From a virus: a DNA stretch of 23,656 nucleotides. Positions within the stretch are counted from its first letter, which is position 1; each line of letters opens with the position of its first letter. The position numbers were made by a program, and so were the translations under genes. Positions 12 through 23,656 of the stretch are shown here, one piece after another. Location: IMG/VR virus record IMGVR_UViG_3300036985_000870, positions 1 to 23,656 of that record. One strand, 5' to 3'. A model generated the notes under the pieces. The model did not search any database and had not been told where the DNA came from. It saw only the letters and a program-made list of their open reading frames with translations.

Positions 12-428
12 TTATACAATCCCCTTTACGTATTTACCTTTACCCTTGAGTGTGAGAATATTCCCACGCATACGAGGGTCAAAGGATATATGAACCCAAG
101 TCTTTTCATAAATTAGTTGGTCAAACTTAAGATTACTCTTACTTAAGATATTAGATATAGTAAGTGGAGTGTGACCATAGGCTGTGAAGTCCACAGCATA
201 ACCATAAGTGTGTGATGAGTTACTAGTACCACCTACTGCTCTGTTAACATCAGGACTACGGTAACCACTATTAATTGTAATAGCTACATTGCCTAGTATT
301 TCTCTTACTTTCTCCATGTAGAAAGCAGTTGTGCGTAACACCTCTACTACTTCTTTAGATGGAGTATTATCTATCTTTTGATTAGTGACAGTTAATTCAG
401 CAAGAGAGAAGTGAGGGGTTAATTGCAT
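12..428 (-). CDS. M15-family peptidase, probable endolysin
   Basis: A 138-residue protein resembling peptidase M15A / D-Ala-D-Ala carboxypeptidase-like phage lysins, which cut peptidoglycan peptides using zinc. The frame shows the family pattern: a GYRSPDVN block with Arg about residue 57, then SSHTYGYAVDF giving His about 73 and Asp about 80, and WVHISFD giving His about 113 as the third zinc ligand. The open frame extends upstream to 506, but that Cys-rich extension is unlike the family and overlaps the next gene. I chose the ATG at 428 because it overlaps the preceding stop as TAATG, a translational coupling arrangement. It lies directly downstream of two small membrane proteins, so this is most likely the lysis cassette. 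No signal peptide is seen, so export would need a holin. Confidence 0.85.
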   Translation of the reverse strand: MQLTPHFSLAELTVTNQKIDNTPSKEVVEVLRTTAFYMEKVREILGNVAITINSGYRSPDVNRAVGGTSNSSHTYGYAVDFTAYGHTPLTISNILSKSNLKFDQLIYEKTWVHISFDPRMRGNILTLKGKGKYVKGIV

Positions 429-640
429 TAAGCGTGTCCTATAACTGCACGAGAAATATAAGAGATAACTGCACCTACAAGAGATGCAATCATCATACCC
501 ATCCAAAATCCACCACGACCCTTATTGGCTAAGGCAAGTAGTTCGTCTAGAGCATTTTCCATCTTGTCTATCTTCTTCTCAAGCATTTCTACTTTAGCAA
601 TGAGTTTACCATATTCAACTGAGTCTAGAATTTCGGACAT
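428..640 (-). CDS. small membrane protein with coiled coil, holin candidate
   Basis: A 70-residue protein. Residues about 8-40 form a charged heptad-like helix (KVEMLEKKIDKMENALDELL). A hydrophobic segment follows at about 46-65 (WMGMMIASLVGAVISYIS), ending in a short basic tail. This layout, an N-terminal coiled coil and one C-terminal membrane helix, matches many small phage holin or XhlA-like proteins. The stop overlaps the peptidase start by one base, tying the two genes in translation. A single-TM holin, a pinholin or an accessory lysis protein are all possible; the function is inferred from position and topology. Confidence 0.6.
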   Translation of the reverse strand: MSEILDSVEYGKLIAKVEMLEKKIDKMENALDELLALANKGRGGFWMGMMIASLVGAVISYISRAVIGHA

Positions 641-11872: not shown

Positions 11873-12091
11873 AGAACTATATAGTAAACACAAAGTAAAA
11901 CTCTTTCTAAATTCAGATTTTAGATTTAGAGATACTTTGAGTAATGTCTCAGATCTATATAGTCTCTTTCCGTTACACTCTTCTCAATTCCCTTCTCTTT
12001 TGTCCGTAGAAGCACATTATGCTTAGGATACGTTCCAATTTAGCCTTTGTTGTGTGTGGTGTGATACATCATAATAAATCTTGTTAATGCA

Positions 12092-12124
12092 CATGACACC
12101 CCCCCTATATCATTCTATGTCATG
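12092..12124. repeat. inverted repeat CATGACA...TGTCATG around a C7 run
   Basis: Perfect 7-base arms (12092-12098 and 12118-12124) enclose a 19-base loop that begins with seven C. It is followed by a second small hairpin, CTTACC-TTC-GGTAAG, at 12131-12145. It lies in the gene-poor control region. No T run follows, so it is not a terminator; a protein-binding dyad or RNA element is possible. Confidence 0.5.
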
Positions 12125-12171
12125 CTATTGCTTACCTTCGGTAAGTTAAAGACAGAAGTGATTGACCTATG

Positions 12172-12202
12172 TGTAGTATACGATGTAGTATCTATGTAGT
12201 AT
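12172..12202. repeat. three TGTAGTAT boxes at 11-12 base spacing
   Basis: TGTAGTAT occurs at 12172-12179, 12184-12191 and 12195-12202, close to one helical turn apart, and again at 12344-12351. A TTGACC box at 12162-12167 lies 18 bases before TAGTAT at 12186-12191, so a weak promoter may also be present. Regular helical spacing suggests binding sites for one protein, such as an initiator or repressor. Confidence 0.5.
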
Positions 12203-12212
12203 ACTCATACTC

Positions 12213-12248
12213 TATCTAATACTCTTAGTATCTTTACTTATGTAATCT
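12213..12248. repeat. 36-nt repeat element, copy 1
   Basis: The copy runs TATCTAATACT...TAGTATCT...TTATGTAATCT and contains an ATACT-CTT-AGTAT dyad (12219-12231). It matches the copy at 12332-12367 in all three blocks, with two compensating one-base length differences. It sits just after the TGTAGTAT boxes. Confidence 0.55.
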
Positions 12249-12331
12249 TTATTGTCTAGATTATTTTTGTAGATGGATATGTGTTGTGTGGTGCACATAG
12301 AGGTATCAACTTATGTATTCTCTACACTATC

Positions 12332-12367
12332 TATCTAATACTTTGTAGTATCTACATTATATAATCT
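12332..12367. repeat. 36-nt repeat element, copy 2
   Basis: Second copy, with an ATACT-TTGT-AGTAT dyad (12338-12351) that includes a TGTAGTAT box and ends in an AT-rich TTATATAATCT block. The AT-rich end and the paired dyads resemble origin or regulator-binding modules. No function can be assigned. Confidence 0.55.
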
Positions 12368-12428
12368 AAGTGTATGTTTCTTAAAGCCTTTTACAATCGC
12401 TTTATCTGTCCTCAAAGCCTCGTCAATA

Positions 12429-12537
12429 TATTGCATGAGTTTGCCTTCCGCCAATGAAACGCTAGCATAAGACCGCAGACTGTCATTGGCGTCAGCACTA
12501 CGACATCGCCAGCTCGTCGTGTGAACTCTATGCAATA
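12429..12537. ncRNA. possible structured RNA with three-way-junction fold
   Basis: Three nested perfect or near-perfect stems. The outer stem is TATTGCATGAG (12429-12439) with CTC-t-ATGCAATA (12526-12537), 11 bp with one bulge. Inner stem A is CGCCAATGA (12449-12457) with TCATTGGCG (12483-12491), 9 bp. Inner stem B is CAC-t-ACGAC (12496-12504) with GTCGTGTG (12516-12523), 8 bp with one bulge. Together they form a three-way junction. The GC content is visibly higher than the flanks. The rightward promoter at 11844 would transcribe it, though it could also act on the other strand. A 33-codon minus-strand frame with a ribosome site (12335-12436) overlaps part of it. No known RNA family recognised. 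Confidence 0.4.
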
Positions 12538-12618
12538 GACTGACTCACGTCCATCTAAAGAAAGCAAAGTCAAGAACATGTTTCGCTCGAGTCCCTCGCT
12601 CAGAGAGTGTAGTGAGAC

Positions 12619-12635
12619 GCTCATTGGGTATGAGC
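12619..12635. repeat. GCTCAT-tgggt-ATGAGC hairpin
   Basis: A perfect 6-bp stem with a 5-base loop in the control region, between the candidate three-way junction and the paired conserved-loop hairpins. It is part of the same dense cluster of stem-loops. Confidence 0.4.
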
Positions 12636-12647
12636 TGAATTACTAGC

Positions 12648-12674
12648 GGACGACATCAAACAAAAGCGTCGTCC
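12648..12674. repeat. conserved-loop hairpin 1
   Basis: A perfect 7-bp stem, GGACGAC with GTCGTCC, and a 13-base loop ATCAAACAAAAGC (12655-12667). The loop matches that of the hairpin at 12751-12779 at 12 of 13 bases, while the stem sequences are unrelated. No T run follows, so it is not a terminator. Confidence 0.6.
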
Positions 12675-12750
12675 TTGCTAAGAGAGAGGATTCCGTTTCC
12701 GCCCCAGCAAACGAATTATACAGCTATTGAAATAAGATTAGTAAAGGGCT

Positions 12751-12779
12751 ATCATCACATAAAACAAAAGCGTGATGAT
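12751..12779. repeat. conserved-loop hairpin 2, possible terminator
   Basis: A perfect 8-bp stem, ATCATCAC with GTGATGAT, and a 13-base loop ATAAAACAAAAGC (12759-12771), followed by TTTCG; the stem's last T makes a run of four. It could end a short RNA started at 11879, but the stem is AT-rich and the loop conservation points to a binding role as well. Confidence 0.6.
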
Positions 12780-12822
12780 TTTCGTCAATAAACCACTGCC
12801 GAAACCGTAAATATCTAAAAAC

Positions 12823-12907
12823 AATTTCATTGCTCACGATTACATATTAATAACTTCTATTAGATTATAGATTGTGTTTGAGTGTAACATCTAAGACCAA
12901 TGAAATT
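12823..12907. repeat. 10-bp inverted repeat with a 65-base loop
   Basis: AATTTCATTG (12823-12832) is the exact complement of CAATGAAATT (12898-12907). A TTACA/TGTAA pair and a CTAT/ATAG pair lie inside. It is the last element of the stem-loop cluster before the TTGACA box at 12922, for which no convincing -10 is visible. Confidence 0.45.
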
Positions 12908-13021
12908 CTTTTCAGCTACCCTTGACAAACCTTATTTCAACCATGTCGATACGCATGCCAAGGCAGAACTGAACCTCTCTTACTGTCTTCTTTATCTTTA
13001 TCTTAATTGGAGTATTATCAA

Positions 13022-13162
13022 ATGGAAAACTTAATCTTATTATTAGTATTTATTGGTTGTTTGTGTGGTGTGTTTTGTATAGCTGATTTATGTGTTACAC
13101 TTATAGCTAAACGGAAACATGCTAAACAATCTAAACTTAATGGTTTCAATTATAAACTTTAA
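13022..13162 (+). CDS. small single-pass membrane protein
   Basis: A 46-residue open frame, MENLILLLVFIGCLCGVFCI then a basic tail (AKRKHAKQSK). One hydrophobic helix covers residues about 4-28, including several Cys, with the positive C-terminal tail expected to be cytoplasmic. A TTGGAG site lies nine bases before the ATG, and the frame lies between the structured control region and the first large early gene. Small early membrane proteins often act on the host envelope, for example in superinfection exclusion, but nothing in the sequence proves this. Confidence 0.55.
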   Translation: MENLILLLVFIGCLCGVFCIADLCVTLIAKRKHAKQSKLNGFNYKL

Positions 13163-13181
13163 TCTTAAATTAACAACCGAC

Positions 13182-13201
13182 GAGGTAGCGGTTACTACCT
13201 C
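13182..13201 (+). terminator. GAGGTAG-CTACCTC stem-loop in the leader of the next gene
   Basis: A perfect 7-bp stem with a CGGTTA loop, followed by an AT-rich stretch with broken T runs. It lies between the 46-residue gene and the 285-residue gene, so it may attenuate transcription or protect the downstream message. Confidence 0.4.
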
Positions 13202-13236
13202 ACATTTATCATTTAATTATTAAAAGGAATCAAATC

Positions 13237-14094
13237 ATGTTAAAAGCAATATCAAAAGCAATTCAAGCAATGTTCACAAACAACTCTCGAAGTGAACAAA
13301 TAAGTAACACCAAAGAAATACAAAAACCAGTTCAAAAAGAAGTCAAAGATACATTAAGTCACATTGCTAGTAGTAGCTTCACCTTTCAAACAATTATCGC
13401 AGGTGAACAAGGTGAGACACTACAACATCTTGGTGCTCGTAACTTACTATGGCATGTAGGTGGAGCTATCGCTAGACACCCAGCCATTGTAAATTATGGC
13501 TTAACACGCAAAGAAATCAGCGAAGGTAATGGCAACACAAGCCAGTTGGACGGTGTGCTTGAGAAACAACCTCTAGACCTTGAAACACTCTTAAAAGGTT
13601 TCTTGTTCCTAACAGAAAGACTTGAGGATTTAGCAGAGTTCGAGGATTATGATACACGAACAGGTGCTCCAACAAACCCATTTGCGTGGTATAACATTCC
13701 AACACTTGAGAGTTACATTCGTAACTTCCAGAACTACCGCACAGAAAGAGTGAACACCCAACGCCAAGACCATGCACGAGCATTAGGTATTAAACAAGAT
13801 TTACCTAAAGCTGATGTGTCTAGTGAACTAGATGAACTAGTAAAGAATGCTATGGAAACCTTACGAGGATTCATGCCACGAATTGGTGATAGCTCTCTAG
13901 AGGACTTAGAAAGTATCATAGCTGATATGAAAATTGACCCTTTATACATCATTCATCAATCAGCAGTAGGTATGCTAGACAGAGCTAAAGCAGCTTTGAT
14001 GGCAGGTAAAGCAGGTTACATTGACCCTGAGATTCTAGCATTCGCTCGTTGGACATGCCGTCCACAGCAAGGTATGCAAGCACCTCAAGACTAA
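13237..14094 (+). CDS. early protein of unknown function
   Basis: A 285-residue protein with a basic, amphipathic start (MLKAISKAIQAMF), a Lys/Gln-rich linker to about residue 40, then a mostly helical body. Visible features are GEQGETLQHLGARNLLWHVGGAIARHP, an acidic FLTERLEDLAEFEDYD segment and GYIDPEILAFARWTCRP near the end. No catalytic motif, zinc site or membrane helix is certain. AAGGA lies about eight bases before the ATG, and a strong terminator follows the stop. It is the first large gene after the rightward promoter, so it is probably expressed early. Codon use matches neighbouring phage genes. Confidence 0.7.
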   Translation: MLKAISKAIQAMFTNNSRSEQISNTKEIQKPVQKEVKDTLSHIASSSFTFQTIIAGEQGETLQHLGARNLLWHVGGAIARHPAIVNYGLTRKEISEGNGNTSQLDGVLEKQPLDLETLLKGFLFLTERLEDLAEFEDYDTRTGAPTNPFAWYNIPTLESYIRNFQNYRTERVNTQRQDHARALGIKQDLPKADVSSELDELVKNAMETLRGFMPRIGDSSLEDLESIIADMKIDPLYIIHQSAVGMLDRAKAALMAGKAGYIDPEILAFARWTCRPQQGMQAPQD

Positions 14095-14107
14095 GTAACC
14101 AGTAGTG

Positions 14108-14144
14108 AATAGCCCACCAAAACATCGGTGGGTTATTTATTTGT
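14108..14144 (+). terminator. rho-independent terminator after the early gene
   Basis: An 11-bp stem, AATAGCCCACC with GGTGGGTTATT (one G-T pair), around an 8-base loop and followed by a T-rich TATTTGTC stretch, 13 bases after the stop codon. It would separate the first early unit from the amidoligase cassette. Confidence 0.8.
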
Positions 14145-14166
14145 CTATCCATTATAGTAAGGTTGC

Positions 14167-14285
14167 TAAAAAATGCCACTCGCTCGCATTCGCTCGCTCG
14201 TCTCTTTCGCTCTCTTACGCTCGCTCTATTGCCCTCATTGCATTCGGGTAGGTCAAGGGCACCCGAGACGGTCATATCAGGGGGC
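14167..14285. other. GC-rich CTCG-repeat tract and alternative hairpins
   Basis: Positions 14170-14227 are a pyrimidine-rich tract of CGCTCG/CTCGC units, unlike the AT-rich surroundings. Then TGCCCT (14230-14235) can pair with AGGGCA (14256-14261), and TCGGGT (14244-14249) with ACCCGA (14261-14266). The two pairings interleave and share a base, so they compete. The tract ends with GAGACGGTCAT, an 11-mer found twice more in the window. No gene is credible here. It may be a regulatory leader or a recombination scar. Confidence 0.45.
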
Positions 14286-14317
14286 GAACCGAACATAAAT
14301 CAAAAGGGATCCTACAC

Positions 14318-14476
14318 ATGAAATTACTATTAGGTTTAGTTTCAGTATTAATTATTCTTGTATCTGTTGACTTATCTTCAAATGTATGCTATGTAGTTCT
14401 AACAGATAGAAATGGACAACACTCAATCTTAACAGGGACTCGTGACTATTATGATAATCTCGAAGTATTCGACTGA
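14318..14476 (+). CDS. small membrane-anchored protein
   Basis: A 52-residue open frame, MKLLLGLVSVLIILVSVDLS then NVCYVVLTDRNGQHSILTG and an acidic end (DYYDNLEVFD). The first 18 or so residues form a Lys-led hydrophobic helix, a membrane anchor or signal sequence without a clear cleavage site or lipobox. The tail looks like a small beta unit, probably outside the cytoplasm. An AAGGG site precedes the ATG by about eight bases. It overlaps the next small frame by 26 bases. Function is unknown. Confidence 0.6.
   Translation: MKLLLGLVSVLIILVSVDLSSNVCYVVLTDRNGQHSILTGTRDYYDNLEVFD
14367..14395 (+). promoter_or_regulatory. possible promoter ahead of the amidoligase operon
   Basis: TTGACT (14367-14372), 17-base spacer, TGC then TATGTA (14390-14395). 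It shares TTGACTT and GTATGCTAT with the rightward promoter at 11844 in the same register, although the -10 matches only three of six bases. It lies inside the small membrane-protein gene, 213 bases before the amidoligase start. Confidence 0.35.
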
Positions 14477-14639
14477 TACATTAAATGAAATGTATTGTCA
14501 CTTGTATTTTAAGAAGTTTAATAGACTTCCTAAAAGTAGTAGCAGTATAGACCGTAAGACCTTGATACAGTTAGTATCGAGTTTATCAACCAAGAAGGAG
14601 CAAGTAAATGAGACCGTTTACCAACAATCAGTTTTATAA
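14451..14639 (+). CDS. small basic protein, hypothetical
   Basis: A 62-residue frame starting at ATG 14451 (an upstream GTG at 14442 is also in frame). It is basic and helical, with MYCHLYFKKFNRLPKSSSS and DRKTLIQLVSSLSTKKEQ. It overlaps the previous gene by 26 bases and the amidoligase gene by 32 bases, and only a weak ribosome site precedes it, so translation would depend on coupling. The SIDRKTLIQLVSSL segment looks like genuine helical protein. No function recognised. Confidence 0.45.
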   Translation: MIISKYSTDTLNEMYCHLYFKKFNRLPKSSSSIDRKTLIQLVSSLSTKKEQVNETVYQQSVL

Positions 14640-16161
14640 AAACAATTGTGAGATCCCTAATCTACATCCAGACTTTAAGATGGAAATAGAAGGGGGGTTC
14701 AACAGTTATGGTAGAGAAGTAACTCTTAAGAAATACTATGTCAAAGGTAGTGCATTATCTATCACTAGTTCCATGACAATTATCAACGAAGAATGGTATC
14801 ACATATTCTCAGTCAGCAATAGTGGCTACATGCGTGATTACAATTCAACAGTATCTGCAGCAGCTGGGCTAGTTCACATTCGTAACAGTTGGGATGGTGA
14901 GAATGCTACAGTAGATGCTATGTATTACAAATCTAATCCAGTTAAACTATTCTTAAAGAATGGGACGCTTCGTAAAGGTATCTACAAAGAAGTATCCAAG
15001 CGTTTAAATTCTGAGAGATGGTGTAAGAGTGGATACACTCACGAATTACTTAACGAGTGTATCGCTGCTCAACCTGAAGTAATTATTGCAGATGCTGATA
15101 CTCTTGTAGGTTACATGAGTAGTATGTTTAACATAGAATTATTCAAGTGTCACTTGACAGGGGGAGTATTTCCTTACTACTTAGGTAGAGGTTACCAGTT
15201 CTCTGAAGGTATTCGTCAGGTTCATGGTGCTAATTCTCCTACAGATTTTGGATTCAATCGTCACGAGTATCAACATGGTTACATCTTCTTACGTGATGAC
15301 GAGTGTCTTATCCAAGGTAGAGTATACAAACGTGATGAAGTTACTATGTGTGAGTGTCCAGTGTGTCATCGTGAGGTTCCTGATCTATCTATCATAGATG
15401 GGGCATGTCACAAGTGTAACGAGAACCTATACAAGATACACAACTACAGCACCAAGGTTCCCGAATTACTCAAGTTCAAGGCTAAGAATGTTAAACCTTC
15501 TACTGTATATCTAGGTATAGAGTTAGAGTATGAGTCAGATGATCGTGATGTATCTAAGATCAAGGTAGGTAAAGCTTTACAGGGTCATGCCATTATGAAA
15601 CACGATGGCTCTATCAAGAATGGCTTTGAGATTGTTACTTGTCCTGCTACTCTAGACATTCACTTGGAAGAGTTCAAGAAGTTCTATAGTTCATATGGTT
15701 CTCTTGGTCTATTCCCTGATAAGAACACAGGTATGCATGTGCATGTAAGTCGCAAGCCTCTCAATGTATTTACTATAGGTAAGATGACTGAGTTCCTTAA
15801 TCGTAATGACAACAAGTCATTCATTGCTCACATTGCTGGTCGTATCGACAATCAATATGCTAGGATTACTGGTAGATCTGTCACCTATCCATTCATCAAT
15901 GGGCAACAGGGTGAACGATACAATGCACTTAACTTATCTAATCGTGATACTATTGAGTTCCGTATCTTCAGCACACCTAAGAGTTGGGAAGAGTTCTCTA
16001 GTAGGCTTGAGTTCTGTCAAGCGTTGACTGACTATTGTCAACCAGCTCAAGTTAATGTCCCACTCAAACAACTTACGGGACATCGTAGCTTTATACATTG
16101 GGTTATGCTCAATCGTAAATCATACCCTGAATTATCTAACTGCTTGAAAGGATTCGCATAA
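14608..16161 (+). CDS. amidoligase-family protein with zinc-finger insert
   Basis: A 517-residue protein whose C-terminal half (about 300-500) fits the putative amidoligase family (glutamine-synthetase/GCS-like fold, COOH-NH2 ligases). The signs are LGIELEY near 302, KHDGSIKNGFEIVTCP near 330-345, TGMHVHVS near 374-380, and RYNALNLSNRDTIEFRIF near 437-455. These enzymes are predicted to form amide bonds between a carboxylate and an amine using ATP. Residues about 247-275 hold a four-Cys zinc-binding module (MCECPVCH...CHKCNE). The first 240 residues match no family I know and may bind the substrate. AAGGAG precedes the ATG. The stop overlaps the GATase start (TAATG), so the two are made together. 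Confidence 0.8.
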   Translation: MRPFTNNQFYKNNCEIPNLHPDFKMEIEGGFNSYGREVTLKKYYVKGSALSITSSMTIINEEWYHIFSVSNSGYMRDYNSTVSAAAGLVHIRNSWDGENATVDAMYYKSNPVKLFLKNGTLRKGIYKEVSKRLNSERWCKSGYTHELLNECIAAQPEVIIADADTLVGYMSSMFNIELFKCHLTGGVFPYYLGRGYQFSEGIRQVHGANSPTDFGFNRHEYQHGYIFLRDDECLIQGRVYKRDEVTMCECPVCHREVPDLSIIDGACHKCNENLYKIHNYSTKVPELLKFKAKNVKPSTVYLGIELEYESDDRDVSKIKVGKALQGHAIMKHDGSIKNGFEIVTCPATLDIHLEEFKKFYSSYGSLGLFPDKNTGMHVHVSRKPLNVFTIGKMTEFLNRNDNKSFIAHIAGRIDNQYARITGRSVTYPFINGQQGERYNALNLSNRDTIEFRIFSTPKSWEEFSSRLEFCQALTDYCQPAQVNVPLKQLTGHRSFIHWVMLNRKSYPELSNCLKGFA

Positions 16162-17072
16162 TGTGTATTGCTATTTATAAACCAGAAGGTGTATTGATTG
16201 ACAAGGCTACACTAGCTCAATGTTATTCTGCTAACTCTGATGGTGCTGGTTATATGTTCCATAAGAATGATAAACTGTATGTCAAGAAAGGTTTCTTCTC
16301 TTTCGAAGACTTCTGGAAATCGTATCGTCGAGATAAAACAAAAGAGACGGTCATTCATTTCCGTATCAAGACTCATGGCTTAATCAATGAGGCTAACTGT
16401 CATCCTTACAAAATCAATGATAACTTTGCATTCGTGCACAATGGTATGATCTCAGGGTATACTGATCCAGCTAAGTCTGACACTTGGTTATTCAATGAGG
16501 ATATCTTACAACCATTTGTAGATAAGTGGGGCAACTTAGGTTTATTCCAAGACCCTGTACAAAAACTTATCGAAGCTCGTATTGGTTACAGTAAGCTTAT
16601 CTTTATGGATAACACAGGTAATACTAAGATCTTTAATGAGGACAAGGGTGTATGGGATAATGATGTATGGTATTCTAATTCTAGTTACAAGAAGCCAGCT
16701 CCTTATGTACCACCACCACCTAGCACATATTATCCACCTCGTCAAGCTTCTTTTCTTACTAATCGTTACTACGATAACAAGCAGACTTGGGCTTACAAGA
16801 AGGAGAACATAGCACTAGGTGAGTTGGTGACTCTGCTTAGTGGACAGTATGATGCTGGCACTCGATCATACTTCCCTAAAGATTCTGTGTGGGAGATCGT
16901 TGCAGTTAATCGTGACTACTCAGTAGACTTAATGGCTGACTCAGCTGATGAGAATAATGATACTCCTAACTTCCTATACAACATCAAGTTCATGGACATT
17001 GAGTTGTTAGAGGATGACTATGAGGCACCAGTAGAAGCAGGTAATGTTATTTATCCGTATGGAGGAATATAA
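16161..17072 (+). CDS. class II glutamine amidotransferase (Ntn-type)
   Basis: A 303-residue protein. After Met removal the N-terminal Cys2 (MCIAIYKPEG) is the expected nucleophile of class II glutamine amidotransferases. NSDGAGYMF (26-33), HFRIKTHG (66-73), NCHPYK (79-84) and FVHNGMISG (91-99) follow the fold's glutamine-binding and oxyanion pattern. It would release ammonia from glutamine for a partner ligase, most likely the amidoligase or ATP-grasp enzyme beside it. A Pro-rich linker (PYVPPPPSTYYPP, about 187-199) leads to a C-terminal domain at about 215-290 (LGELVTLLSGQYDAG...VWEIVAVNRD) that looks like an SH3-like barrel. Start and stop are coupled to neighbours; GGAGG precedes the next gene. 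Confidence 0.85.
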   Translation: MCIAIYKPEGVLIDKATLAQCYSANSDGAGYMFHKNDKLYVKKGFFSFEDFWKSYRRDKTKETVIHFRIKTHGLINEANCHPYKINDNFAFVHNGMISGYTDPAKSDTWLFNEDILQPFVDKWGNLGLFQDPVQKLIEARIGYSKLIFMDNTGNTKIFNEDKGVWDNDVWYSNSSYKKPAPYVPPPPSTYYPPRQASFLTNRYYDNKQTWAYKKENIALGELVTLLSGQYDAGTRSYFPKDSVWEIVAVNRDYSVDLMADSADENNDTPNFLYNIKFMDIELLEDDYEAPVEAGNVIYPYGGI

Positions 17073-17074
17073 TC

Positions 17075-17455
17075 ATGGAATATAATAGAGGTGATAAAGT
17101 TGTAGTAACAGAAGACTTTGAGTATGATGGTGCTACCTTCCTAGCAGGTATGACAGGGACTGTTCTCAAGTTTCATTCAGATAGGGGTGTAGGTGGTGTA
17201 GTATCTATTGAGTGGGATCATGAAGATAAACAAAACTTCCACTCATGTGGTGGTCTTTGTCTTACTCATCGAGGCTATAACCTAGATGCATTTGAAGCTA
17301 GGCTAGGTCCTATTGGAACAGATGTTAAGGCTAACCCTCTACCTGATGATCCTAGGTTGCGTGGTATTGCAATCAAGATTAAGCAGATGGAAGCTAGGTT
17401 TAAACTTAAACAGTTACAGAAACTCAAACAAAAGGAGGTAGTGTATGACTTTTAA
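17075..17455 (+). CDS. SH3-like barrel protein of the amidoligase cassette
   Basis: A 126-residue protein. Residues about 3-50 read GDKVVVTEDFEYDGATFLAG, MTGTVLKF and GGVVSIEWDHED, the strand pattern of a small SH3/KOW-like barrel of the Mib-type group. A CGGLCLTH loop near 67-74 has one Cys pair. The C-terminal third is helical and Lys/Gln-rich (KIKQMEARFKLKQLQKLKQK). GGAGG lies before the ATG, two bases after the GATase stop, and its stop overlaps the ATP-grasp start by 11 bases. It could be a scaffold or substrate-binding partner for the three enzymes. Function is inferred. Confidence 0.65.
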   Translation: MEYNRGDKVVVTEDFEYDGATFLAGMTGTVLKFHSDRGVGGVVSIEWDHEDKQNFHSCGGLCLTHRGYNLDAFEARLGPIGTDVKANPLPDDPRLRGIAIKIKQMEARFKLKQLQKLKQKEVVYDF

Positions 17456-18227
17456 ATTATTCCCATACAAGATGGGTTCTATCTCAGGTAAGGCTCTAGC
17501 TAATGCTCTAGGCATTAAGCGTATCCGCCCTACTTATGAGGCTAAACGACGGGACATCATCATTAACTGGGGCAACTCTCGTCCGTCAGAGAGTGTGCCT
17601 TATGCTGAGAAGGATCTTAATAAGCACAGTGCTATTGCTATTGCATGTAACAAGCTTAAGACCTTTGATCTACTGTATGAGCATGAGTATCCCTATCTAC
17701 CGCAGTATTGTCTAAGTAGATATCAAGCATCTACTATGCTCTATAATGCTACTAATGGGGGCGAACGATTAGGTAAAGAATCTATTTATTGTAGAACAGA
17801 CTTGACAGGGCATAGCGGACGTGGTATAGTAATAGCTAAGACCACTCTAGATTTAGTAGTGGCTCCGTTGTATACTCTTGGTACTAGGCATAAGCATGAG
17901 TATCGTGTACATGTATTCAGAGAGACGGTCATAGACGTACAACAAAAGAAACGCAGATCTAATTGGACTGGTGGTGACACTGGTATACGCAATCACTCTA
18001 ACGGTTACATCTATGCTCGTGCAGACATAGACTATCCTGTAGAGATTCAACATGCTGCAATACAGGCAGTTAAGTTGTTAGGTCTAGACTTTGGTGCAGT
18101 TGACATTGGCTATCGAGAACGAGATAATAAAGTATTCTTGTTCGAGGTCAACACTGCTCCAGGTCTTACTGGAACTACGTTACTAAAATATGCACAAACT
18201 TTTAAGGAGTATCTAAACAATGCATGA
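17445..18227 (+). CDS. ATP-grasp ligase
   Basis: A 260-residue protein with the ATP-grasp layout. The opening includes RRDIIINWGNSRP (35-47), seen in a phage and bacterial group of ATP-grasp proteins. A conserved CRTDLTGHSGRGIVI stretch (116-130) is the glycine-rich flexible loop. EYRVHVF (152-158) is a core strand, AVDIGY (218-223) carries an Asp, and FLFEVNTAPGL (231-241) has the Glu-x-Asn metal pair. ATP-grasp enzymes make acyl-phosphates from carboxylates and join them to amines or thiols. With the GATase and amidoligase it suggests stepwise building of an amide-linked compound or tag. AAAGGAGG precedes the ATG inside the end of the previous gene. Confidence 0.82.
   Translation: MTFKLFPYKMGSISGKALANALGIKRIRPTYEAKRRDIIINWGNSRPSESVPYAEKDLNKHSAIAIACNKLKTFDLLYEHEYPYLPQYCLSRYQASTMLYNATNGGERLGKESIYCRTDLTGHSGRGIVIAKTTLDLVVAPLYTLGTRHKHEYRVHVFRETVIDVQQKKRRSNWTGGDTGIRNHSNGYIYARADIDYPVEIQHAAIQAVKLLGLDFGAVDIGYRERDNKVFLFEVNTAPGLTGTTLLKYAQTFKEYLNNA
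17802..17830 (+). promoter_or_regulatory. possible internal promoter in the ATP-grasp gene
   Basis: TTGACA (17802-17807), 17-base spacer, TGG then TATAGT (17825-17830). The -35 is perfect and the -10 matches five of six bases. It lies inside coding sequence that also encodes the conserved glycine-rich loop, so chance is possible. Confidence 0.35.
18100..18128 (+). promoter_or_regulatory. possible promoter for the replication genes
   Basis: TTGACA (18100-18105), 17-base spacer, GATAAT (18123-18128). Perfect -35 and five of six at -10. It lies 92 bases upstream of the 49-residue gene that opens the replication block. Confidence 0.45.
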
Positions 18228-18369
18228 CGCCCTAGAAATACTTGATGAGCTAGATACAATTCTAGCAATGCACTACATTAATGATGATGAACTTATTGCT
18301 ATTATCTTTAAATATGTAGAACAAAAACGGACTGAGTTTCAACCAGCATGTGGTGAATGTGGAACTTAG
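18220..18369 (+). CDS. small acidic protein with C-terminal CxxC
   Basis: A 49-residue frame beginning MHDALEILDELDTILAMHYI and ending PACGECGT. It is acidic and helical with one CxxC at the end, too little for a full zinc finger alone. An AAGGAG site lies about ten bases before the ATG, and the gene overlaps the end of the ATP-grasp gene by eight bases. It leads into a 64-residue zinc protein and the primase, so it belongs with the replication operon. No family recognised. Confidence 0.6.
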   Translation: MHDALEILDELDTILAMHYINDDELIAIIFKYVEQKRTEFQPACGECGT

Positions 18370-18406
18370 TCGAATATTACATAACATAAAAGGAAGGGGT
18401 ATACCT

Positions 18407-18601
18407 ATGAGATGTCAAGCGTGTGATTGTGAACTAAGTGACTATGAAGCTACTAGAAAAGATTCTCATGGTACCTATCTAGATCTTTGTAGTGACTGTT
18501 ATTTTACTGTGCGGGACGAAGTTCCAAGCACAGCTCGTAAAGATTTAGAGACAGTTATTTCCATTGATTCGGAGGAGATACCAGAAATTAATGGAAATTA
18601 G
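18407..18601 (+). CDS. small zinc-finger-like protein
   Basis: A 64-residue protein starting MRCQACDCELSDYEATRKD. Two Cys pairs (CQAC at residues 3-6 and CSDC at about 28-31) are spaced like a treble-clef or DksA/TraR-type zinc finger. The tail is acidic (DLETVISIDSEEIPE). An open frame begins at 18350, but I chose the ATG at 18407 because AGGAAGGGG sits just upstream and the extension runs into the end of the previous gene. Similar small zinc proteins precede primase genes in T7-like phages. It may bind DNA or host RNA polymerase; the role is not known. Confidence 0.65.
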   Translation: MRCQACDCELSDYEATRKDSHGTYLDLCSDCYFTVRDEVPSTARKDLETVISIDSEEIPEINGN

Positions 18602-18610
18602 GAGAAGTTA

Positions 18611-19327
18611 GTGACACAATTCATTAAACATTTACCTTGTCCTAGGTGTAATAGTAAGGACAACTTAGCTGAGTATGACGACCATTTCTTTTGCTTTGGT
18701 TGCAAATATACTAAGCAGAAAAATGACATAAAGTCAATACGTGAGAAGGTAGAATCACGAACGTCTCTGCTTAATGTGGTTAACGATGTTCGTTCTCCTA
18801 CTCTAACTTATGATTTACCTAAGGAAGCTAAGCAATGGTTGTTCAGTTATGGTATTACAAACGATGAAATTACTAACTCTAAAATGGGGTGGGATGTGAA
18901 GAACCAACTACTAGTTTTACTTAACATGCCTCAGTATTGGCAAGGTCGCAGCTTCATGAAAGGTAGACCTAAGTATTCCTCTTACGGTAGAAAGCCCTTG
19001 ACTTATTATGGAATGAGTGATACTATAGTATGTGTAGAGGATGTACTATCTGCAATCAAGATAGCTAGACTCTCACCATCTTATTGTGCTACACCTTTGT
19101 TAGGTTGTAGTATGACACGAGACACTATACAAACGCTCTCTAAGCGATTTAAAATGGTTATCCTATGGCTAGATAGGGATAAAGCTAAAGAAGCTATAAG
19201 AATCTCTAGGGAATTCAAACAACGAGGAATACCTACAAGGATTGTTATCTCTCCTGAGGATCCTAAAGAATATACAAAGGAGGAACTAACTGAATGGTTG
19301 AACTTCAAATCATCAATGTTTTCATGA
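18611..19327 (+). CDS. DNA primase (zinc finger plus TOPRIM)
   Basis: A 238-residue primase like the N-terminal half of T7 gp4. A zinc-binding domain, CPRC...CFGC with Cys 10, 13, 28 and 31, reads the template trinucleotide. After a linker comes a small primase body with WQGRSFMKGRPKY (110-122). The TOPRIM motifs follow: CVEDVLSAIK with Glu 143, and ILWLDRDKAKEA with Asp 188 and 190, which bind metal for RNA primer synthesis. It starts with GTG at 18611; GGAG lies seven bases before it and no ATG fits. In T7 the helicase is fused; here it is a separate gene overlapping by 34 bases, so the two proteins probably act together at the fork. Confidence 0.87.
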   Translation: MTQFIKHLPCPRCNSKDNLAEYDDHFFCFGCKYTKQKNDIKSIREKVESRTSLLNVVNDVRSPTLTYDLPKEAKQWLFSYGITNDEITNSKMGWDVKNQLLVLLNMPQYWQGRSFMKGRPKYSSYGRKPLTYYGMSDTIVCVEDVLSAIKIARLSPSYCATPLLGCSMTRDTIQTLSKRFKMVILWLDRDKAKEAIRISREFKQRGIPTRIVISPEDPKEYTKEELTEWLNFKSSMFS

Positions 19328-20532
19328 AGGATAGAAAAGACTTTACAAAGTATTACAAGTATGTTAATATAAACTATATCAAGAACAACTATGTTAACAT
19401 CTATAAAGTCTTTAACGTTCTCTCAATCTATTACTCTAAGTACTCTACTAAAGACAACTGTAGCGTAGAGGATTTGGAGTTATGTTACTTAAGTAATTAT
19501 CTTTTGCAGGACTCTGAGCGTAAGGAACTTAGAGAATTACTAGAATCTATCTTTAGTCTAGAGGTAAACCTAGAGGGAGTGATTACTCTTCTAGAAGAAC
19601 ATCGTCGACGTTCTCTCGCTGGAGACATCGCTAAGATGGCTCTAGATGTAGAGGATGGTAGGACTCCAGTAGAAGATTTACTCTCTCTATTCTCTGAGTT
19701 TGAGTTACAAGAAGTAGAAGACAATACTCCAGTAACTGTCAACATGAATCTTGCAGAGTTATACACCTCTCAAGTAGCAACACCTGGTCTACGATGGAGA
19801 CTTAAGTTCTTGAATGAATCTTTCGGTTCTCTTCGTAAGGGTGACTTCGGGTTTATCTTTGCTAGACCTGAGACTGGTAAGACTACCTTCCTTGCTAGTG
19901 AGATCTCTCACATGGTAGAACAAACAGATGGTAACATCTTATGGTTCAACAATGAGGAGCAGGGTAACAAGGTTGGTATTCGTTGCTTCCAAGCTGTCCT
20001 AGGTATGACTACGGATCACTTATGGGGCGACCTAGAACGCAATCAAAAGGTGTATGACATGAAGACTAAGGATCAGATTAAGATCTACGACTTCGAAGAT
20101 TCATCTAGCATCCAACGCATCGAACAGATTCTTAAGACAACTAAACCTGCTCTTATCATCTTCGATCAGATAGATAAACTCAAAGGCTTTAAGGCAGAGA
20201 GAAAGGACCTTGAGCTTAAGGCTATCTATCAATGGGCTCGTGAGATATCCAAGAACTACGCACCTGTCATCGCTGTATCTCAAGCTTCAGGTGAAGCAGA
20301 AGGTAAGACTTGGTTAACGATGGATATGGTTGATGGCAGCAAGACTGCGAAGCAAGGCGAAGCTGACTGGATCTTAGGCATTGGTAAAGAATCAGATAAC
20401 ACTAGTCGATTCAGATACTTTAACATCTGTAAAAACAAACTGTTAGGTGATGCTGATACTCTACCTGAGAAGCGACACGGTAGTGCCAAGGTTATGATTA
20501 GGGCGGAGGTGGCTCGATACGAGGACTTATAA
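19294..20532 (+). CDS. replicative DNA helicase (DnaB/T7 gp4 type)
   Basis: A 412-residue protein. Residues about 1-140 form a helical, Tyr/Lys-rich N-terminal domain. The RecA-like motor follows, with Walker A FARPETGKTTF (189-199), a switch block GNILWFNNEEQ near 213-223, Walker B PALIIFDQIDK near 283-293 and a motif-III-like VIAVSQASG near 325. The closing DTLPEKRHGSAKVMIRAE resembles the hexameric helicase end. It would unwind DNA ahead of the polymerase and recruit the primase. AAAGGAGG lies ten bases before the ATG at 19294. The N-terminal domain is not the primase, consistent with a split T7-like primase-helicase. Confidence 0.9.
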   Translation: MVELQIINVFMKDRKDFTKYYKYVNINYIKNNYVNIYKVFNVLSIYYSKYSTKDNCSVEDLELCYLSNYLLQDSERKELRELLESIFSLEVNLEGVITLLEEHRRRSLAGDIAKMALDVEDGRTPVEDLLSLFSEFELQEVEDNTPVTVNMNLAELYTSQVATPGLRWRLKFLNESFGSLRKGDFGFIFARPETGKTTFLASEISHMVEQTDGNILWFNNEEQGNKVGIRCFQAVLGMTTDHLWGDLERNQKVYDMKTKDQIKIYDFEDSSSIQRIEQILKTTKPALIIFDQIDKLKGFKAERKDLELKAIYQWAREISKNYAPVIAVSQASGEAEGKTWLTMDMVDGSKTAKQGEADWILGIGKESDNTSRFRYFNICKNKLLGDADTLPEKRHGSAKVMIRAEVARYEDL

Positions 20533-21684
20533 ATGAAAGAACTAGTATTAGATGTAGAAACAACAATCTCTAACAAGGGTAATCCTTTTGATCAGACTAA
20601 CAAACTATGTTATGTGGGGATAAGTAGTGGGCTGTACGATATAGAATACTCACACGATCCCTATGTACCTAAGCTTCAAGAGATTCAACAAAAGATTGAT
20701 GAGTCTGATATTTTAATTGGGTTTAATATTAAATTTGATTTGCATTGGATAAGACGATATGGAATTACTTTTAGCAATAAGCGTATTTGGGATTGCCAAC
20801 TGGTACACTTTATACTTACTGGACAAACCGAATCGTATCCTTCCCTTAATGGGGTCGCTGCTCATTATGGTCTGGGTACTAAGCTTGATGTGGTTAGCTC
20901 AGAGTATTGGAAAAATGGTATAGATACACCTGACATACCTAGAGATACCCTTGAAGAGTACTTGCAGGGTGACCTAGACTTAACACACCAAGTCTATCTC
21001 AAACAGCTAGAAGAAGTTAATGCTAGTAGCTTACAACTACAGCGACTAATCAGTTTACACAATCAAGATCTCCTAGTCCTTCAAGACATGGAGTTTAACG
21101 GTTTACTTTACAACGCAACAAAGAGTGAGGAATTAGCAAATGAATTGGATGCACAAATCGTCGAGCTTGATAACGAGTTGTATCAGTACCATAACTGTGA
21201 TCGTTTTAATCCCAATAGTGGTGAGCATCTCAGTTCTTTACTTTATGGGGGAAGCATCAAGCTTTCTCGCAAAGTACCTGCTGGAGTTTACAAGACAGGT
21301 GCTCGCAAAGGTGAGGCAAAAGAAAAGTGGGAAGACTATGTAGTAGACTTGCCTAGACTCTTTACTCCTCCTAGAGGTTCAGAGTTAGCTAAAGAAGGTT
21401 ACTTCTCTACTGATGAGGCTACACTCAAGTCCCTTAAGAGTAGGAACCAACACTCTCTCAAAGCCATACAGACACTACTCACTAGGTCTGACTTAGAGAA
21501 GAGAGTATCAACGTACTACAGAGGCTTACTCAAGTTAGCAGCTGAACTTAACTGGAAGGAGAACAAGATACATGGACAACTTAATCAATGCGTCGCTCGT
21601 ACAGGACGTCTGTCAAGTAGTAAACCAAACCTGCAAAACTTCGACGGAGGAATCAAAGGTCTCTTCTATTCTAGATTTACTTGA
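20533..21684 (+). CDS. family A DNA polymerase, N-terminal part (split gene)
   Basis: A 383-residue piece of a T7-like DNA polymerase. The 3'-5' exonuclease motifs are complete: LDVET (Asp 7, Glu 9), GFNIKFD (Asp 69) and YLQGDLD (Tyr 143, Asp 147). The polymerase part begins at about residue 180 and includes VARTGRLSSSKPNLQN near 353-368, the end of the thumb/palm entry. The frame then stops at TGA (21682-21684), just after GLFYSRFT, where an intact polymerase would continue into motif A. An HNH gene follows. This product could retain proofreading-type exonuclease activity but lacks motifs A, B and C. The start lies directly after the helicase stop. Confidence 0.85.
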   Translation: MKELVLDVETTISNKGNPFDQTNKLCYVGISSGLYDIEYSHDPYVPKLQEIQQKIDESDILIGFNIKFDLHWIRRYGITFSNKRIWDCQLVHFILTGQTESYPSLNGVAAHYGLGTKLDVVSSEYWKNGIDTPDIPRDTLEEYLQGDLDLTHQVYLKQLEEVNASSLQLQRLISLHNQDLLVLQDMEFNGLLYNATKSEELANELDAQIVELDNELYQYHNCDRFNPNSGEHLSSLLYGGSIKLSRKVPAGVYKTGARKGEAKEKWEDYVVDLPRLFTPPRGSELAKEGYFSTDEATLKSLKSRNQHSLKAIQTLLTRSDLEKRVSTYYRGLLKLAAELNWKENKIHGQLNQCVARTGRLSSSKPNLQNFDGGIKGLFYSRFT

Positions 21685-22262
21685 TGCTTACGAGAAAGAT
21701 GTGTACCTTGAACGCTTATGGGAGGACTTATACTAGATGCTACTACAAGCAGAAAGTACTTGACTAGAATGGAATCTTATGGTATACTAATAGTATAACA
21801 ATAGGAGAATCCCATGAAACCTTATGATCCAGTAAAAAGAAGAGAAGAATATCTAAAAAATTATGATAAATATAAAGAGCAAAGAAAAACCTATGCAGAA
21901 AACAATAAAGACTCTAAAAATAAAGGAGCCTTAGAGTATTATTATAAAAAGAAAGTTGAAGACCCAGTGAGATACTTACTAAAGTATGCAAAGTTAAGAG
22001 CAAAACAAAAAGGAATAGAATTCTCTTTAGTTAAAGAAGATATAATTATTCCAAAGTTATGCCCTTACTTACAAGTACCACTAACAATAGCAGGTGATAG
22101 AAAACATTCACCATCAATAGATAGAATTGACCCTTCATTAGGTTATAGTAAAGGTAATATAGAAATTATATCTACTTTAGCGAACTCAATGAAGTGGAAC
22201 TCCACGAAAGAAGAGTTAATTCAATTCTCTAAATCAGTTCTTTTAAAGGAGGGTATATTGTA
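21685..22262 (+). mobile_element. HNH-endonuclease insert splitting the DNA polymerase gene
   Basis: About 580 bases separate FYSRFT of the first polymerase half from LLQADAKQL of the second. The insert holds a promoter and an HNH homing-type endonuclease gene, and the 5' end carries a partial copy of the LLQA coding sequence (21737-21753 matches 22263-22279 at 14 of 17 bases). I see no group I (P, Q, R, S) or group II domain V sequence, and the HNH stop abuts the second half, so there is little room for a splicing core after it. A free-standing homing gene insertion fits better than an intron. Edges are approximate. Confidence 0.65.
21760..21788 (+). promoter_or_regulatory. promoter for the HNH gene
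   Basis: TTGACT (21760-21765), 17-base spacer, TGG then TATACT (21783-21788), followed 25 bases later by the HNH start with AGGAG. It gives the insert its own expression, independent of the polymerase operon. Confidence 0.65.
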
Positions 22263-22263
22263 A
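21814..22263 (+). CDS. HNH homing-type endonuclease
   Basis: A 149-residue protein. A basic, Tyr/Lys-rich N-terminus (about 1-75) is followed by CPYLQVPLTI near 88-97. The HNH core is SPSIDRIDPSLGYSKGNIEI near 103-122, continuing STLANSMK to about 130. The Asp-Arg-Ile-Asp, GY.KGN and late Asn match the phage HNH pattern of metal-binding and catalytic residues. Such enzymes make a break in an allele lacking the insert and spread by repair. Its codons are richer in AAA and ATA than the neighbours, suggesting recent arrival. AGGAG precedes the ATG by about seven bases. Its TAA overlaps the ATG that begins the second polymerase half. Confidence 0.85.
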   Translation: MKPYDPVKRREEYLKNYDKYKEQRKTYAENNKDSKNKGALEYYYKKKVEDPVRYLLKYAKLRAKQKGIEFSLVKEDIIIPKLCPYLQVPLTIAGDRKHSPSIDRIDPSLGYSKGNIEIISTLANSMKWNSTKEELIQFSKSVLLKEGIL

Positions 22264-22982
22264 TGTTACTCCAAGCGGATGCAAAACAACTGTAACTGGA
22301 GTGGGTAGGAGCCACATACTTAAGTCAAGATCAGACAGCTATCGAAGAGATTCTTAATGGGGTAGACCAGCATGCAGACAACCAACAAAGATTTGGACTA
22401 CCAAGTCGACTTATTGCTAAAACGTTCGTGTTTCGACTCATCTACGGAGGATCAGCGTACTCTTATGCGAATGATCCTAACTTCTCAAGTATTGGAGATG
22501 AAACGTTCTGGCAAGGAGTCATCGATCAGTTCTACGCAAAGTACAGTGGACTAAAGGTATGGCATGAGCAGTTACTAGAACGAGCTATGCGTGATGGTCG
22601 TATCGAGATGCCTACTGGTAGAGTCTACAAGTTTGAACCTGAGGTTAAGTATGGTAAGGTTAAGTTCCCTCGTACTAAGATCTTAAACTATCCTGTACAG
22701 GGCTTAGGTGCAGACCTTATGGCACTAGCTAGGGTCTCACTTCGTAACAGATTAAAAGATAAAGAAGGAGTCTTTATGGTCAACACAGTACATGACTCAA
22801 TAATACTTGACTTTGATCCTAAAGTATGGGATAATATTAGTCTAGTGCAGTTAGTTACAAACTGTTTTAACGATGTACCACTTAACTTTAAAAAGATATT
22901 TGGTTCGGAGTTCAATCTACCTATGAGGGTTCAGTGTGAAGTTGGACCTGACTGGGGCAACATGGAGGAAGTTAATGCTTAG
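22263..22982 (+). CDS. family A DNA polymerase, C-terminal part with in-frame stop
   Basis: Codes for the palm and fingers of the split polymerase. ATG 22263, with AAAGGAGGG nine bases before, begins MLLQADAKQL, which holds the motif A Asp. An in-frame TAA at 22293-22295 then interrupts it, and the frame continues as LEWVGATYLSQDQTAIEEIL. After that come SRLIAKTFVFRLIYGGS (motif B region), ILNYPVQGLGADLMALARV and VNTVHDSIILD (motif C). Compared with the expected DAKQLEW, the sequence has six extra bases (TAACTG or CTGTAA). The longest stop-free start is a GTG at 22428, but it has no ribosome site and would cut into motif B. Unless the stop is bypassed, no polypeptide carries all three motifs. 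Confidence 0.75.
22807..22835 (+). promoter_or_regulatory. possible promoter ahead of the small SSB-tail gene
   Basis: TTGACT (22807-22812), 17-base spacer, TGG then GATAAT (22830-22835), inside the polymerase gene and 140 bases before the next start. The extended TGG and five of six -10 bases fit the promoter pattern seen elsewhere in the window. Confidence 0.4.
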
Positions 22983-23265
22983 AATTAAAATTATTGATGT
23001 GGGTACCCCTAGCTCTCACCAATCAGCTAATGGCTTAGAGTATCAAGCTATAGAAGTTATCTTCAGGGATAATGAGGACCAAGTCTTATCTAAAAGATTA
23101 TTCTCTTTCAGAAATAAGAATGTGTACAGAGCTGCGAGTAGTTGGACCAAGGGTACCGTAATAGATATTGTAGACGAGGCTGACGCTAAAGGCTTTACTC
23201 AATGGGTTGACTTTGATTTAGTACAACCTTCAAAGGGTGGAGAGGATGACGATGTTCCCTTCTAG
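22975..23265 (+). CDS. small protein with SSB-like acidic tail
   Basis: A 96-residue protein, MLRIKIIDVGTPSSHQSANG at the start, with a beta-rich middle (YQAIEVIFRDNEDQVLSKRLFSF, GTVIDIVDEAD). It ends GGEDDDVPF, the acidic Phe-ending tip used by bacterial single-strand binding proteins to recruit partners. I infer an OB-fold ssDNA-binding or mimic protein. The frame opens at 22936, but ATG 22975 is chosen because GGAGG lies six bases before it and it overlaps the polymerase stop (ATGCTTAG). A second SSB gene lies just downstream, so this may be an accessory protein. Function is inferred from the tail and position. Confidence 0.65.
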   Translation: MLRIKIIDVGTPSSHQSANGLEYQAIEVIFRDNEDQVLSKRLFSFRNKNVYRAASSWTKGTVIDIVDEADAKGFTQWVDFDLVQPSKGGEDDDVPF

Positions 23266-23344
23266 TAAGACTTGGATCACAGTATTAGAAATAGTTACTT
23301 GTATTCACATTATCGTAAATGTATATCATCACTGGAGTATTTAA
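23246..23344 (+). CDS. very small membrane protein, possible
   Basis: A 32-codon frame, MTMFPSSKTWITVLEIVTCI and on to VYHHWSI. One hydrophobic helix spans about residues 9-27. It overlaps the previous gene by 20 bases; GGAGAGG suits the second ATG at 23252 (30 residues) better. It ends just before the SSB start, whose GGAG site lies inside it. Peptides this short can arise by chance, so this is a candidate only. Confidence 0.35.
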   Translation: MTMFPSSKTWITVLEIVTCIHIIVNVYHHWSI

Positions 23345-23346
23345 AT

Positions 23347-23656
23347 ATGGCAATTAAAATTAAAGCAAAGTTGTTCTGGGCTCAACTAAACGAACCTAAC
23401 GAAATGTCTGGTAAGTATCAAGTAGACTTAGCTAACCTAAGTGCAGATGCTGTCAAAGAGTTAACTGCTCTAGGTATCAATGTTAACAAGCGAGACGATG
23501 ACGAGTATGAACGAGGTCACTACATTACCTGTAAGTCAACCTACCCAATCAAAGCTATTGATGGTGATGGTGTACCTATTTCTACTGATGTTCGTATTGG
23601 TAACGGTAGTGAAGCTATTGCCGTTGTGGATTCTTATGAGTGGAAGTTCAAAGGTA
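23347..23656 (+). CDS. single-stranded DNA-binding protein, partial
   Basis: The first 103 codons of a gene that continues past the window. MAIKIKAKLFWAQLNEPNEM, then KYQVDLANLSADAVKELTALGINV, and RGHYITCKSTYPIKAIDG match the start of T7 gp2.5-like or DUF2815-type phage ssDNA-binding proteins, which coat single strands at the fork and help polymerase and helicase. GGAG lies nine bases before the ATG. Its place after the polymerase fits. The C-terminal acidic tail, if present, is outside the window. Confidence 0.75.
   Translation, partial: MAIKIKAKLFWAQLNEPNEMSGKYQVDLANLSADAVKELTALGINVNKRDDDEYERGHYITCKSTYPIKAIDGDGVPISTDVRIGNGSEAIAVVDSYEWKFKG

Follow-up and report, generated by a model that had tools for sequence, protein, structure and literature searches.

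The window, a 23.7-kb virus fragment, encodes a compact form of a phage ligase cassette, consisting of a long amidoligase, a class II glutamine amidotransferase (GATase), a small barrel-like protein, and a RimK-like ATP-grasp ligase. Cassettes of this kind are already known; new here are a variant that we term class B and a conserved basic C-terminal segment shared by its small proteins. From the gene set, the enzyme folds and residues, the linkage of the genes, and this tail, we infer a possible reaction, a role for the small partner, and a biological effect. The reading that we tentatively favour, at somewhat below an even chance, is that the cassette acts on a polypeptide, with the small protein as substrate or adaptor.

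All four ORFs are intact and lie on the + strand, as do all cassette features given below, at 14608–16161, 16161–17072, 17075–17455, and 17445–18227; they encode proteins of 517, 303, 126, and 260 amino acids. In gene order, they are joined by a 1-base overlap, a 2-base gap, and an 11-base overlap, and ribosome-binding sequences at the internal junctions support the start sites. That of the ATP-grasp gene, AAGGAGG (17432–17438), lies within the end of the small gene, ahead of the ATG at 17445. Median dN/dS is 0.21 for the amidoligase, 0.13 for the GATase, 0.39 for the small protein, and 0.14 for the ATP-grasp (28 pairs each), confirming that the cassette genes are under purifying selection. 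The gene order is identical in every close relative whose contig spans the region. A sequence-only reading of this DNA had proposed tight coupling of the four genes and a place between early and replication genes; both hold, with early ORFs on one side and primase/helicase genes on the other. Neither outcome that it named as refuting was observed: the modelled amidoligase has the expected fold, the ATP-grasp assignment stands by profile, and relatives keep the genes linked.

The replication half of the window resembles that of the Zobellviridae Methylophilales phages MEP401 and MEP402; by megablast, the window has almost no near relatives among phage records. The interval between the cassette and the primase encodes a small CxxC protein (18350–18601, + strand), a conserved neighbour in 49 of 54 class B loci and also in MEP401/402, for which no Pfam family was found. 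Because it is also present in phages without an ATP-grasp, it is probably part of the replication block. Further downstream, the DNA polymerase gene is split (20533–21684 and 22428–22982, the latter matching PF00476), as are the polymerases of MEP401/402, and a 149-aa ORF without an Rfam intron match lies between the halves (21814–22263); there are no Rfam matches in 12000–23656. On the early side, a GC-rich low-complexity stretch with repeated gctcgc-like motifs was noted by eye at 14160–14300, between an early ORF (13237–14094) and the cassette.

The amidoligase (14608–16161) scores 24.7 bits against PF12224 (Pfam cut-off 22), and 43 of its 44 aligned relatives match the same family with E values up to 0.01. 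An AlphaFold2 model built from the 44-sequence alignment reached a pLDDT of 84.8, while one built from a 16-sequence alignment was too weak (pLDDT 58). In the stronger model, residues 293–517 (15484–16158) form a catalytic domain with a YbdK/glutamine synthetase-type fold that aligns to 1r8g/1tt4 by VIA-align (for YbdK, Z 12.4 and rmsd 4.0 over 207 residues), and Foldseek also matches YbdK and glutamine synthetases. This domain contains the motifs GxExE, DGSxxNGFE, HVH, and RYN...TIExR, which have aligned counterparts in the class A phage amidoligases described below (hhalign 97.5%). Fold and acidic and histidine motif residues alike are those of GS/GCS-type carboxylate-amine ligases, and based on the model, we assign the protein as an amidoligase with this fold, in agreement with the family first named for it.

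Two further features of this protein are an N-terminal domain (residues 1–248; 14608–15351), which the short amidoligases of LUZ24/CW02-type cassettes lack, and a Cys4 motif, C250-x2-C253 ... C267-x2-C270 (15355–15417), whose four cysteines are invariant in 44 sequences and which is probably a zinc ribbon. No fold was identified for the N-terminal domain, as the structure matches span residues 293–517 only. The sequence-only reading had the three enzymes right but overlooked this domain, the Cys4 motif, and the conserved tail of the small protein.

The second ORF (16161–17072) encodes a class II GATase, an Ntn hydrolase with catalytic Cys2. Cys2, Arg68, Asn94-Gly95, and Asp107 are invariant in 12 sequences, consistent with the ammonia-releasing enzyme that had been proposed; Met-Cys occurs near the GATase start in all 54 class B loci, and the profile matches GlmS (1xff, E 8e-8). 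The scores lie below the curated Pfam cut-offs for GATase_4/6 (17.8 vs 23 and 16.7 vs 27 bits), and we therefore regard the protein as a divergent class II GATase, identified through its residues and profile match and not through its Pfam score.

The last ORF (17445–18227) matches phrog_2599 (E 7e-68) and, by profile, solved RimK-type enzymes in the PDB (E 4e-7), which agrees with its original assignment as an ATP-grasp; D220, E234, and N236 are invariant. Its closest solved relatives are the RimK-type glutamate ligases, which comprise ~300 residues compared to 260 here. Since its score against the RimK family TIGR00768 is 27.5 bits, far under the cut-off of 143.4, we describe it by sequence as RimK-like, not RimK. 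Toward its C-terminus, it additionally scores above the cut-off of PF07478, a family of D-Ala-D-Ala ligases. In total, 312 phage records match this ATP-grasp.

The ATP-grasp profile was used to find loci in IMG/VR and GTDB genomes, and profiles of every cassette protein were then run over the flanking DNA; where the flanks are readable, the loci belong to one of two classes. Class A contains a COOH-NH2 ligase, a ~190-aa protein, a short amidoligase, and a GATase, often together with a gamma-glutamyl cyclotransferase (GGCT) and a class I amidotransferase, and annotated phage records confirm this classical gene set. Class B contains the long amidoligase, the GATase, and the ATP-grasp, without PF14395 ligase or GGCT. 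With all three enzymes present, it comprises 54 loci, the window included, two of which (L139 and L156) match only weakly. The order is almost always amidoligase-GATase-(small protein)-ATP-grasp on one strand, and no locus with readable flanks combines the long amidoligase with a COOH-NH2 ligase. The PF14395 ligase was not found in the window, which is a fragment, in four relatives (36–44-kb records), or in MEP401/402, with seven class A phages positive as controls. Likewise, GGCT was not found in seven class B or MEP records, with CW02 and LUZ24 positive as controls; it is also missing from some class A loci. The sequence-only reading had not noticed the absence of these two usual partners. 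One distant class B-like locus, L147, has the order GATase, amidoligase, ATP-grasp and lies on a 12.9-kb contig (JAHEYD010000038.1) binned as Candidatus Nitrosotalea, which also encodes tailed small proteins and a primase-like ORF; this contig from an archaeal bin is probably viral.

The combination of amidoligase, GATase, ATP-grasp, COOH-NH2 ligase, and GGCT has been described as a putative peptidoglycan modification cassette in LUZ24-like, phiEco32-like, RIO-1-like, and CW02 phages (PMC5498523, PMC11945000); the cassette genes are listed without that name in PMC3890496. The sequence-only interpretation is upheld for the families and their coupling but did not take into account that the cassette was already described in many phages. 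Its statement that the product in phages is not established agrees with the cassette literature (PMC5498523, PMC11945000, PMC10580990). The LUZ24, phiEco32, CW02, and RIO-1 cassettes share with the window a PF12224 amidoligase, a class II GATase, an ATP-grasp of the same family (33–45% identity), and a position before primase/helicase, and small barrel-like proteins are interleaved in CW02 and CVT22 as in the window. Class B differs from them in lacking GGCT, the PF14395 ligase, and the ~190-aa protein encoded between that ligase and the amidoligase, and in possessing the extra N-terminal domain and Cys4 motif of the amidoligase and small proteins with a basic tail.

For amidoligase (31–35% identity) and GATase (55%), the nearest isolate relatives are those of MEP401 and MEP402 (Zobellviridae), in which the pair sits, as in the window, before the CxxC protein, primase, and helicase, but without an ATP-grasp or a tailed small protein. 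Their amidoligase and GATase have been noted previously, along with those of >30 metagenomic genomes, and the function was called open (PMC10580990). The two genes are also adjacent in Marvin, ctgrD200, and Acinetobacter phage 313, and no ATP-grasp was found in the whole records of any of these phages, MEP401/402 included. Because the pair stands without an ATP-grasp in MEP401/402, Marvin, and ctgrD200, amidoligase and GATase are the core pair, and the ATP-grasp is an add-on. Apart from L139, the class B sequences cluster in a single group of the ATP-grasp tree, apparently nested in class A, with weak deep supports and long branches; in its simplest reading, the tree suggests that one ATP-grasp lineage stayed while its partners were swapped.

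The small protein (17075–17455) has no Pfam match. Its residues 2–68 match phrog_22041 (E 7.8e-6), the family of CW02 gp6 (E 2e-42), which is encoded inside the class A cassette of CW02, and an SH3-like fold is plausible. Toward its C-terminus, it carries the basic segment LRGIAIKIKQMEARFKLK (17357–17410). Class B small proteins have divergent N-terminal parts and share this segment, with the consensus [VI][IC]xK[IV][KR]Q[LM]xx[RK] and the core [VI]xxK[IV][KR]Q[LM]; the window gene is among the carriers. A first profile, derived from nine ORFs that lie between GATase and ATP-grasp, was applied to 30 other loci in which those two genes touch. Of the 21 ORFs starting 3 bases past the ATP-grasp stop, it matched 18, against 0 of 2131 other ORFs (Fisher p 9e-42, a strong value that nonetheless overstates independence, as the 21 downstream ORFs are mutually homologous and the loci related). 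With a second profile, built from ORFs at both positions, 40 of 52 class B loci proved to have a tailed, fast-evolving small protein immediately upstream or downstream of the ATP-grasp gene, with up to four per locus; the marginal loci L139 and L156 were left out of these counts. The remaining 12 of the 52 have no recognisable tailed small protein, so it is either dispensable or unrecognisable there. The codons of the segment vary synonymously, so selection acts on the protein, not on an RNA signal. These observations concern the upstream segment and exclude the final few residues of the small proteins; their terminal YAF/YDF is dictated by the start codon and ribosome-binding site of the following gene, with which it overlaps.

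In the proposed mechanism, the class II GATase would release ammonia from glutamine, and the GS-fold amidoligase, using ATP, would activate a carboxylate and convert it with that ammonia to a carboxamide or another amide. To this product, the RimK-like ATP-grasp may contribute a peptide or isopeptide bond. The small co-translated protein would be the modified substrate or, alternatively, an adaptor docking the enzymes on a host protein; we favour such a polypeptide target or adaptor because the small proteins are linked to the cassette and tailed. In a more specific form, which we consider unlikely, class B would be a phage protein-tagging system in which two or three ligase activities recognise the common C-terminal segment of divergent small proteins. 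If so, these proteins would be exchangeable adaptors or modified products. Pup/PafA and LysW/LysX share the idea of a GS-fold or ATP-grasp ligase paired with a small protein, and PafA and Dop appear in the Foldseek list. However, the likeness is one of concept, and the last residue of the class B small proteins is variable (F, V, I, T, and others) instead of a conserved Glu/Gln, so that Pup/LysW-like conjugation through a C-terminal Glu is not supported.

Small early proteins with shared C-termini also occur in Citrovirus-type Zobellviridae, where 6 to 18 per genome end in one common peptide that differs between genomes: LENE in CVT22 (L160), LEND in Pecta (L167), LENK in Asterion (L168) and Klyazma (L172), MENE in T2S1 (L171), and LEEN followed by V, I, L, or A in CW02 (L025). 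The peptide overlaps the ribosome-binding site of the next gene. We rejected the explanation that the CVT22 and CW02 tetrapeptides are mere Shine-Dalgarno sequences, as codon changes are almost only synonymous and five ORFs that lack GGAG still retain the peptide. LUZ24 and phiEco32 do not have it, nor do two relatives without a cassette or the majority of the other class A loci, and because it is clade-restricted, we do not use it as a main argument. If the protein-tagging form of the hypothesis is correct, these peptides (LENE, LEND, LENK, MENE, LEENx) would be the class A counterpart of the class B tail.

Among the alternatives, the strongest, although somewhat unlikely, is that cytosolic UDP-MurNAc-peptide precursors receive a changed stem peptide, amidated and extended by one residue, and that the wall so modified serves against superinfection or in the control of lysis. 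Related cassettes have been interpreted in this way in the literature (PMC5498523, PMC11945000; Iyer 2009 as cited in PMC10580990), which also cites Hardies 2013 on these cassettes. The interpretation is consistent with the D-Ala-D-Ala ligase match of the ATP-grasp and with an M15_3 peptidase in the window (12–506, − strand; E 7.5e-21), a possible endolysin of a class that cuts cell-wall peptides. However, the proposal rests on enzyme class, and PMC5498523, PMC11945000, and PMC10580990 cite no experiment for a wall role; in neighbourhood clustering, no wall gene lies next to the cassette, and a wall role would leave the shared small-protein tail unaccounted for.

Amidoligases, GATases, and ATP-grasp enzymes build small amides in bacteria, and the product could also be a small peptide-like metabolite or signal directed at the host, at a competitor phage, or at a defence system. 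The amidoligase-GATase pair of MEP401/402, which stands alone, fits a one-step small-molecule amidation, but neighbourhood clustering revealed no linked transporter, carrier, or tailoring gene, and the small-protein tail again goes unexplained, making this possibility improbable. Hypermodification of phage DNA bases with amino-acid-like groups is very improbable, for although all these phages have the cassette immediately ahead of primase/helicase, its recurrent neighbours include no enzyme that forms or exchanges bases. Moreover, 11 of 16 restriction enzymes cut the DNA of U17, a LUZ24-like phage whose cassette is of class A, and U17 is not among the phages called modified (PMC11945000). Of the three targets initially left open, a protein and a surface polymer still stand, and modification of DNA bases has become unlikely.

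Phage amidoligase/ATP-grasp cassettes are widespread, yet they are annotated as wall modification by analogy. Class B narrows the question of the ligase target to two or three enzymes, and the tail provides a concrete candidate partner; with so compact a gene set and a conserved tail, the question becomes testable with four genes.
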